From Cyclobacteriaceae bacterium (GTDB taxonomy: Bacteria; Bacteroidota; Bacteroidia; Cytophagales; Cyclobacteriaceae), in contig JAUUZS010000266.1 in assembly GCA_030589835.1 (NCBI GenBank), positions 1-6,359 on the forward strand: 6,359 nt of DNA. Reading direction: 5' to 3'. The position numbers and the translations under genes are program-made. Position 1 is the first letter of the stretch, and each line of letters opens with the position of its first letter. The notes beneath the pieces are model-generated. The model did no database searches. It was not told the DNA's origin and was given only the letters and a program-made list of their open reading frames with translations. Shown one piece after another: positions 2,944 to 5,393 of the stretch.

Positions 2944-2955
2944 GCCTATTTAGGC
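2944..2955. repeat. 12-bp palindrome GCCTATTTAGGC overlapping the stop codon of the cohesin-like gene
   Basis: GCCTA (2944-2948) and TAGGC (2951-2955) are perfect inverted arms around TT and include the TAG stop (2948-2946) of the leftward gene. As RNA it could form a small hairpin between the two minus-strand genes, but no T run follows in the leftward direction, so it is not a convincing terminator. That agrees with read-through into the OmpA-family gene. Confidence 0.4.
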
Positions 2956-4736
2956 AAGTTTTTTATTACTTTCCTTGTGATCATTTTTCCGTCTTTACGA
3001 ATTTTTATAAAATAAATTCCTTTAGATGAACCACTTAAATACAAGTCTATAAACTTATCCTTTATTTGTGTATAATCATAGAGCAGTGTGCCTTGCACAT
3101 CGTATATGTTTACAAATTCCAGCGATCCTTTTTCATTTGATAACCTGATGAATTCATTAAATGGATTGGGATATAGGATAATCTCACCCTTCAATTCATC
3201 CAAACCGGTGATGCCAAAATACACGATTTCCGAATCACTCGTACAGCCATAATTATTTGTTACGTTTATGGAATACGCCCCCGTGTTTTCAGGAATTAGA
3301 AATGAACTGGCCGATCGAACAAGCACGCCATCCCTGAACCAGTTGGCCTGCTCATCATTTGCATAAAGGGTATCATTCGCTTGTGTCACGATGGCATCAG
3401 GGTATATTTCGTTCTGATTCACTACAATTGTTGCTGAGGTGTGGCAATCAGAGTTCAAATCTATTACCCAGGCTTTATAGGTTCCATGTTGGAGATTTTC
3501 CATTTCCTGACCTGAAAATCGGGCATTTGCTGTGTCAATGACATCATTTTCGTAAAACCAAAAATAGCGCGGATCGAATTCCTGGGAATTGGCGAGTGAA
3601 ATCGATGCCGAGCCATTTGCCCCATTTTCACAGTAATTGTCTTCTGTGGATGTTAAGGTAATCTGCAATTCCAGTAAATCTTCTGCTACGGTTGCTTGCA
3701 AAAATGTCTTGCATAGATTTGATTTATTTTCTACAGCTATTTCATAATTTCCAGCAAGGAGTTGCTCTGCCTGGTATAAGTCTCTAAAATCGATCAGCTC
3801 CTGGCCGGTTTCAGAGCCATCCACCCACCACGAAATGTTATACAATCCTTCAGCTTGTTCACCATTTACGCTTAAATTAATGGCACCCGTTTGTTTTTCA
3901 GAATCAGTAGTACAACTGGATTGAGGAGTATTTGCCACCAACGTCAATATATCTTTTTGATAAATGGATTCATCTAATACTTCACCGGTAATTGCTTCGG
4001 TTAATATCAGATTATTGTCATCTCGTATTTGAACCGTGTAATTCCCCGGAGGAACGGAATCATACTCAGGACCGATCCAATCTGCGGTGGCTTTTACTTC
4101 ACTGCCAACAAACCATTGAATGTTGAAGTTGGCGGTGTTGCCTGCCATATACACTGATAAAGCTCCATTAGGTGCCTTTTCATCACAGGAAGTATTGGGT
4201 TGTAGCACCAAATCAATTAAATCGCTTTTATTGATGGCAGTATAAATGCTTCCTGATGTAGCATTTACGGGAATGATATCATAGTTGCTGTTTGCAATTT
4301 CTATCGGAAAAGCAGGAGATGAAAAGGTATCTTCAAAAGAAATAGCAACCGCTTGTGTGGTATTTGTAATGACTTCGAATTGTACGGAAAAAATCATGGA
4401 TTGATCGTCAATGCTGACCGGGTTGGCATCAGCGGGTTCCCAAACAAAGCGGATATGCCCATTGCCTGCATTTGTCGTACCAAAATTGCTGACTCCTAAA
4501 TCCTTGATGCCAAAATCAGCAACACTTATGAAAGAGAGCATCGTGGGATCCCAGTTTAACGAGGCCTGGAAGGCAATAATATCTGTAAAATTATTTACTC
4601 TGATATAGATATTGATGATTTCCCCCTGTATGCCATAGCTTTCAGAAGCGGATAATGATACTGCTTCCTGAGCGCTTAAGTTTTTAGGAAAAAAGAGGCC
4701 GAAAAAAAATAAAACAAAAAATATATTTCGAGTCAT
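2946..4736 (-). CDS. Secreted cohesin-like domain protein with T9SS type A sorting domain
   Basis: Complete, 596 residues. A signal peptide covers residues 1-22 (FFPKNLSAQ, then E). Residues about 25-168 resemble a cohesin fold (VSLSASESYGIQGEIINIYI ... FQASLNWDPTMLSFISV). Three degenerate modules follow at about 174-252, 263-350 and 355-440. Each has a Cys near its start (C184, C275, C369), a small-residue strand (NGALSV, TGAINLSV, NGSASISL), a Trp (W208, W303, W393) and a closing G-x-Y strand (GNYTVQI, GNYEIAV, GTYKAWV), as in SprB-like repeats. Modules two and three also end in a Cys (C342, C431), allowing a disulfide within each; module one lacks it. An Ig-like module spans about 445-508 (ANWFRDGVLV ... 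GAYSINVTNNYGC). Residues about 512-596 are a type A T9SS sorting domain (ILYPNPFNEFIRLSN, VNIYDVQGTLL, GIYFIKIRKDGKMITRKVIK). The protein should cross the outer membrane and be released or surface-attached. No catalytic domain is visible; a binding or scaffold role is inferred. The start is supported by the signal peptide and by a promoter box 25 bases upstream. Confidence 0.92.
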   Translation of the reverse strand: MTRNIFFVLFFFGLFFPKNLSAQEAVSLSASESYGIQGEIINIYIRVNNFTDIIAFQASLNWDPTMLSFISVADFGIKDLGVSNFGTTNAGNGHIRFVWEPADANPVSIDDQSMIFSVQFEVITNTTQAVAISFEDTFSSPAFPIEIANSNYDIIPVNATSGSIYTAINKSDLIDLVLQPNTSCDEKAPNGALSVYMAGNTANFNIQWFVGSEVKATADWIGPEYDSVPPGNYTVQIRDDNNLILTEAITGEVLDESIYQKDILTLVANTPQSSCTTDSEKQTGAINLSVNGEQAEGLYNISWWVDGSETGQELIDFRDLYQAEQLLAGNYEIAVENKSNLCKTFLQATVAEDLLELQITLTSTEDNYCENGANGSASISLANSQEFDPRYFWFYENDVIDTANARFSGQEMENLQHGTYKAWVIDLNSDCHTSATIVVNQNEIYPDAIVTQANDTLYANDEQANWFRDGVLVRSASSFLIPENTGAYSINVTNNYGCTSDSEIVYFGITGLDELKGEIILYPNPFNEFIRLSNEKGSLEFVNIYDVQGTLLYDYTQIKDKFIDLYLSGSSKGIYFIKIRKDGKMITRKVIKNLPK

Positions 4737-4793: not shown

Positions 4794-5023
4794 TAAGTAA
4801 CCTATTGATTGATGTGAATGGCATGAAAGAGATAAAATTCCTGACTTATGATGGTTTGTTGTGAATGTATCCAATGCTGACCTATATAATTTAGGTTCTA
4901 ATTAGCAATACGGTTAAAGAGCCAAAAGACATAGAACCAACATTATCTTATAATATTAGCACTATGTAAATCTAAAAGCCAACGGCTGCTCCCTTATCCT
5001 TAAATTGAGAATATCAATGAAAT

Positions 5024-5072
5024 TAATGGCTCATGATACGCATAATTACTGAATGCTTATTATGAGCCATTA
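5024..5072. repeat. Long near-perfect hairpin
   Basis: TAATGGCTCAT (5024-5034) pairs perfectly with ATGAGCCATTA (5062-5072). The stem continues inward as a G-T wobble (5035/5061), three pairs (5036-5038 with 5058-5060), one C-T mismatch (5039/5057) and four pairs GCAT/ATGC (5040-5043 with 5053-5056), closing on a 9-base loop. That gives 18 Watson-Crick pairs in a 49-base unit. Neither side is followed by a T run, so a standard terminator is unlikely. It ends 8 bases before the target duplication of the adjacent MITE-like element. It may be a separate palindromic repeat or a binding site; the function is unknown. Confidence 0.7.
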
Positions 5073-5148
5073 GGATTATTTAGAGCCTGTCTATAAAGTC
5101 ATCGAATTGAAATATTCATCTTTTTGCGCTTTTTTACTAAGCTCAACT

Positions 5149-5165
5149 TGCCTAATACCCAGGCA
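5149..5165. repeat. Small palindrome TGCCT-N7-AGGCA in the centre of the MITE-like element
   Basis: TGCCT (5149-5153) and AGGCA (5161-5165) form a 5-bp stem with a 7-base loop. It lies in the 28-base central loop enclosed by the CTAAGCTCAA/TTGAGCTTAG stem, so it caps the large foldback. The same arms and spacing recur at 5195-5211. Confidence 0.55.
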
Positions 5166-5194
5166 TTTGCTGCATTGAGCTTAGCAAAAAACCC

Positions 5195-5211
5195 TGCCTA
5201 CCGGACAGGCA
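5195..5211. repeat. REP-like palindrome TGCCTACCGGACAGGCA in the right arm of the MITE-like element
   Basis: TGCCT (5195-5199) and AGGCA (5207-5211) enclose ACCGGAC. Comparing the two arms of the element, this G+C-rich unit of about 20 bases has no counterpart in the left arm, so it looks like a later insertion. Similar palindromes built on TGCCT...AGGCA are, as I recall, frequent intergenic repeats in Bacteroidota genomes; copy number cannot be seen from this window. Confidence 0.55.
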
Positions 5212-5393
5212 AGCATCAAAAATATAAACCTTTCAAAAATCAAGCACTTTATAGACAGACTCTAGTGAAGCGTAAAATTATCTATTTAATGACGAATTCC
5301 ATATAAGGAATCAAATATAAATAGTAAGCTGGTTTTCGTGAAGTATTTATTTCTATGTTTATATTGTGATTTCAACCACATGATTAAACCACT

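Follow-up and report, generated by a model that had tools for sequence, protein, structure and literature searches.

The window analysed here, a 6,359-bp stretch of DNA from a Cyclobacteriaceae bacterium (GenBank assembly GCA_030589835.1, contig JAUUZS010000266.1, forward strand), contains a 180-bp unit that folds back on itself and raises the question of what such a unit is, how it came to lie there and which enzyme might have moved it. It is located between divergent genes, 131 bp from the ATG (5394) of an amidohydrolase gene, in agreement with the distance of about 130 bp given in the initial annotation, which had described it as a transposase-less miniature element (MITE) with a TA target duplication. 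The neighboring genes are both on the minus strand: the one at 2946-4736 encodes a protein that combines a cohesin domain with a Por_Secre_tail sorting domain, and the one at 827-2863 encodes an OmpA/PD40 protein. The features of the unit are as follows.

5083..5262, no strand: probable MITE, 180 bp between the outer edges of the terminal inverted repeats (sequence, inverted-repeat search, fold and end match)
5083..5099, plus strand: left terminal inverted repeat GAGCCTGTCTATAAAGT, 0 mismatches to GAGYCTGTCYATAAAST
5246..5262, minus strand: right terminal inverted repeat, reading GAGTCTGTCTATAAAGT inward, 0 mismatches to GAGYCTGTCYATAAAST
5077..5082, plus strand: left flank TATTTA, which agrees with the family target TANNTA (sequence; rule from the pairs of relatives)
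5263..5268, plus strand: right flank TAGTGA, which agrees with the left flank in 4 of 6 bases, the duplication not being perfect (sequence)
5130..5146, plus strand: left arm of the internal inverted repeat (inverted-repeat search)
5175..5191, plus strand: right arm of the internal inverted repeat (inverted-repeat search)
5193..5209, no strand: palindrome-like short stretch CCTGCCTACCGGACAGG, followed by CAAGC (sequence; side hairpin in the fold)

The anatomy annotated initially was confirmed. The two ends, GAGCCTGTCTATAAAGT at 5083-5099 and ACTTTATAGACAGACTC at 5246-5262, form 17-bp terminal inverted repeats with one mismatch, and TA is present on either side at 5081-5082 and 5263-5264, so that the span of 5081-5264 first noted comprises the 180-bp unit plus both TA dinucleotides. 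The second, internal inverted repeat, placed at 5137-5146 and 5175-5184, is present, and its extent was found to be longer, with arms of 17 nt at 5130-5146 and 5175-5191 that are 94% complementary. Folding of 5079-5266 as single-stranded DNA gave a z of -5.5, and none of 200 shuffles was equally stable, in keeping with one long imperfect hairpin. The single listed open reading frame (ORF) of at least 60 aa that overlaps the unit (5124-5306, TTG start) extends beyond its right end and had no match in Pfam, and scanning the window against Rfam with gathering thresholds gave no match. The unit thus is short, bears terminal inverted repeats and has no recognizable transposase gene, whereas its target duplication is imperfect (TATTTA/TAGTGA, 4 of 6). 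Of 300 dinucleotide-shuffled windows, 4 contained an inverted repeat of 17 bp with at most one mismatch and arms 60-300 bp apart, indicating that a repeat of this quality is by itself unlikely to arise by chance, yet is not decisive. What is decisive for the predicted family assignment is that both window ends match, with 0 mismatches, the consensus of its relatives, GAGYCTGTCYATAAAST, which in shuffled windows had a mean of 0.07 matches at up to 3 mismatches.

Just upstream of the unit we observed another hairpin at 5024-5072, TAATGGCTCATGATA...TATTATGAGCCATTA, with 20-nt arms that are 90% complementary and a fold z of -7.2. A search of 59 relatives with 5' and 3' surroundings included (4900-5393) yielded no match over this hairpin at E <= 0.001.

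We investigated the distribution of the ends in related genomes. The amidohydrolase search returned 21 loci, the closest of which were L001 in genome G001 (82% at the amino acid level, whole query) and L002 in G002 (84%, residues 26-322), making G001 the nearest relative by full-length match. The ends matched G001 at 53 places at up to one mismatch and at 88 places at up to two, versus 1 and 43 for the reversed pattern, which served as the control for end counts and, at up to one mismatch, matched at most twice in any of 146 genomes (G001 and its relatives). Across these genomes, 36 contained at least one end match at up to one mismatch and seven contained at least four (G001, 53; G011, 7; G026, 56; G059, 17; G063, 4; G089, 62; G092, 26). 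An exact end match was found in 4 of 390 genomes sampled across the whole order, and a scan of viral contigs with a single exact 20-bp end pattern gave 0 matches. The family is patchy, since G002, G003 and G004, which are also close by amidohydrolase, showed no enrichment over the control (13 versus 17, 13 versus 30 and 4 versus 24, respectively, at up to two mismatches).

To describe the elements themselves, 100 loci around end matches were fetched (G001, 60; G089, 18; G026, 13; G059, 7; G014, 2), which, being chosen by end match, are not a random sample. A facing end pair within 262 bp was present in 68 of them (43/60 in G001, 13/18 in G089, 6/13 in G026, 6/7 in G059 and 0/2 in G014), giving 71 pairs in total when the nearest partner and a slightly wider end pattern were used; one was dropped for too little flank, and the remaining 70 span 119-257 bp. 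An earlier count of 78 pairs (30 perfect 6-bp flanks, 7.3 expected) included nested or false pairings. By their interiors, the paired units fell into four clusters of 40, 21, 7 and 6, some of them nested, and five singletons. The window unit is a further singleton, having in common with its relatives the ends and short stretches only. No second copy of its interior was detected in 9 genomes, in the 59 genomes searched or among the fetched elements, and the best interior match outside the ends and the palindrome was 71% over 70 bases of one G026 element (E of 0.005). The outer 25 bp of the window unit, including TATTTA, is an exact match to a G026 copy (G026:C81); read by eye, this copy (L196) is flanked by TATTTA on either side, and its right end has diverged further.

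We next considered the target site. Identical 6-bp flanks on the left and right were found in 29 of the 70 pairs, against 7.2 expected by partner shuffling (maximum of 14 in 1000 shuffles), whereas identity at 2-5, 7 or 8 bp showed no excess over shuffled partners; at 2 bp it was 39 of 70 versus 38.1. The duplicated 6-mers were TAATTA (13), TATTTA (7), TAAATA (3), TAACTA (2) and TAATTG, TAAGTA, TACATA and TACTTA (1 each). Another ten loci, taken from G092, G063 and G011 and counted without a shuffle control, included four with a perfect 6-bp duplication, and of the six misses two (L278 and L279) look wrongly paired. These results show that in the relatives the family target is TANNTA, of which 6 bp is duplicated. 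The 2-bp TA duplication originally proposed is therefore wrong and is reassigned to 6 bp, and the TA beside the window unit belongs to a 6-bp TANNTA target, whose inner edge it forms. In two tandem arrangements (L092, 510-820; L121, 534-811), one TANNTA copy is common to both neighboring MITEs, which look as if one element had entered the target duplication of its neighbor.

In the window copy, the left flank obeys TANNTA, and the right flank is altered or the product of a rearrangement. Imperfect 6-bp flanks also occur in 41 of the 70 family pairs, and the absence of a perfect duplication speaks against recent movement more than against family membership. Since the flanks do not match, the window copy, which presumably was mobile in the past, is likely old or rearranged. 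In L001-L003 the amidohydrolase is preceded by a different gene than in the window, and because of this difference no orthologous empty site can be read in these loci.

Candidates for the parent insertion sequence (IS) were examined. G014 contains a 1625-bp unit with ends GAGTCTGTCCATAAAGT and GAGTCTGTCCCTAAAGT, one of them with a mismatch, and flanks TAGCTA/TAGGTA that are identical at 5 of 6 positions. Its transposase is split into two ORFs of 246 and 207 aa; Pfam detected DDE_Tnp_1 in the second and gave no match for the first, and the best NCBIfam model for both was ISNCY_1 (NF033593; 5.5e-39 and 7.4e-60), followed by IS5, with scores of 134 and 203 bits that both lie below the whole-protein cut-off of 325. 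The MITE thus has its ends in common with an IS that carries a split transposase and resides in a genome other than that of the window. A relic in G059, 57% identical to the C-terminal piece of the G014 transposase and also matching NF033593, adjoins an exact end and TAATTA, with only one matching end beside it. G014 and G059 gave the two best NF033593 matches among the 146 genomes and were the only 2 of 391 genomes (G014 and its relatives) to match the C-terminal piece at E <= 1e-30, both of them with family ends.

The searched genomes yielded no intact parent IS. For the N-terminal piece of the G014 transposase there was no match in G001, G026 or G092 and one of 45 residues in G089 (E of 1.2e-4). 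NF033593 matches, all below the cut-off, were present in 25 of the 146 genomes, which do not include G092; none was found in G001 or G026 at E <= 1e-10, and the single G089 match (126.5 bits versus the cut-off of 325) has other ends. In the MITE-rich genomes without a recognizable parent, either the autonomous element was lost, or it was missed by the draft assemblies, or a more distant enzyme serves the ends. Open ISNCY_1-like frames were found in 3 of 395 members of the class, one over the cut-off and two just under it, and the fetched flanks of these three contained no family end at up to 4 mismatches. At 22 of the NF033593 loci, together with the three open-frame loci, the paired ends were examined and the family pattern was looked for at the same tolerance. 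This loose pattern matched near the ORF ends of L218, L220, L221, L224, L229 and L242, which were rejected as family IS because their paired ends are other sequences, and L222, L226, L230, L232 and L244 had no clear end pair. End pairs 1196 bp apart in L082 (G001) and 2203 bp apart in L194 were likewise rejected as parent IS, because their ORFs look like ordinary genes (judged for L082 from the translations).

We considered three other explanations for the unit. It could be what is left of a longer, decayed IS whose middle was deleted and which was never mobile as a short element, which would fit the lack of a sibling with the same interior in the searched genomes and the imperfect flanking duplication. 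Against this, its length and paired layout correspond to those of the multi-copy elements found in relatives, its strand forms a foldback structure, and the single ORF inside has no Pfam match; we regard such an origin as improbable. A MITE of the IS630/Tc1-mariner type, which duplicates TA, would account for the TA on both sides of the window unit and beside many relatives. This assignment is already disfavored by the flanks, where the excess over shuffled partners appears at 6 bp and not at 2 bp, and by the IS with family ends, whose DDE_Tnp_1 transposase is nearest to ISNCY_1 and then to IS5, and we consider it very improbable.

That the unit is a terminator or regulatory hairpin of a divergent intergenic region, and not mobile, would agree with the strong fold and with its position; since both ends exactly match a multi-copy family with target duplications and the window has no Rfam match, we give this explanation hardly any weight. 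A regulatory role acquired later by the hairpin is possible, and the unit may influence the amidohydrolase gene 131 bp downstream.

The window unit is thus very likely a non-autonomous miniature insertion element of a Bacteroidota lineage, with ends served by an ISNCY_1-type transposase and inserted at TANNTA sites, an interpretation that draws on its anatomy, the many end-sharing relatives, the 6-bp duplication in these relatives and the IS with the same ends. The initial designation as a transposase-less MITE is supported by the matching ends of the relatives and of the parent-like IS, and the unit is very likely a genuine MITE of an ordinary kind that has a probable ISNCY-type parent. We infer that mobilization occurred in trans: the DDE transposase of an IS nearest to ISNCY_1 (NF033593) would recognize both 17-bp ends, cut there, insert the element at TANNTA and duplicate 6 bp. 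The ends are the conserved part, and the interior, which would have no coding role, varies between subfamilies. Lacking such a transposase in trans, the window element would be immobile.

The interiors of the MITEs were examined for smaller units. In the largest cluster (L082-L168 and L202), members differ at two fixed points, each of which may or may not hold a sharply bounded insert. Insert A is mostly 19-21 bp long (GCCTGCCTGCGGTAGGCAG in its 19-bp form); insert B, mostly of 36 bp, contains a palindrome. Among 31 aligned members of the 40 in the cluster (30 from G001 and 1 from G026), 12 have neither insert, 6 have A only, 4 have B only and 9 have both; these tallies include one A of 12 letters and one of 70, and one B of 29 and one of 34, and the right side is incomplete in 3 of the 31 (L084, L089 and L092_512). 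The other nine members, left out by hand, were five nested pairings of listed elements and four short pairings that are listed nowhere else (L088, L099, L107 and L114). The palindrome of the window unit at 5193-5209, followed by CAAGC, is similar by eye to insert A of the G001 MITEs. This stretch with its flanks was matched at E <= 0.001 in G011, G032 and G013 among the 59 genomes, and several matches of 19-28 bases were found in G001. A strict 20-base palindrome pattern, which does not fit the 19-bp insert A itself, is rare, occurring at 1 place each in 5 of 8 genomes. Inserts A and B may be mobile, or they may have been lost by deletion between short repeats. A more speculative and rather doubtful reading is that the MITEs host still smaller palindromic mobile units (hairpins of 19-21 bp and 36 bp) at mirror positions by CAAGC/GCTTG in the stem, the family then being a nested, parentless fold-back ecosystem; it invokes the occurrence of all four insert combinations, the window palindrome by CAAGC and the apparent absence of an autonomous IS in the MITE-rich genomes.

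In the titles and abstract openings of the papers listed for Bacteroidetes or Cytophagales MITEs, for ISNCY together with MITEs and for ISDol1, we found nothing about this end family. A lone hairpin is now tied to an end-sharing MITE family in seven related genomes, with its 6-bp TANNTA target rule and likely type of transposase named. Such elements thereby become annotatable and their effects on neighboring genes testable, as opposed to unexplained intergenic hairpins.

Compared with IS that carry an ISNCY_1 transposase (NF033593), which include the ISDol1 group of ISfinder, the window unit has ends equal to those of the 1625-bp IS of G014 and differs in having no transposase. Other DDE IS of the relatives, with NF033593 scores below the cut-off (ends such as AGGGYCTGCTGA), resemble the family in that several lie at TAATTA or ATTTA-type sites. 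Their end sequence is unlike that of the family, so that they are not likely partners; its start, GGGYCTG, resembles the family ends at up to 4 mismatches. Since these other-ended IS (L216, L218, L229, L245 and others) occupy such sites, the target preference may be broader than the end-sharing MITE family.

Among known MITEs, MITECca01 of Cardinium is said to be maintained by intact copies of its IS982-family parent (PMC9769881). Unlike this parent, the parent-like IS of the window family is of the ISNCY type, is degenerate and was seen in other genomes only. Set beside prokaryotic MITEs as described in that report and in a review (PMC10969869), the window unit is like them in being shorter than 300 bp and without a transposase gene, and its family is like them in having ends in common with a probable parental IS and in being multi-copy, here in the relatives.
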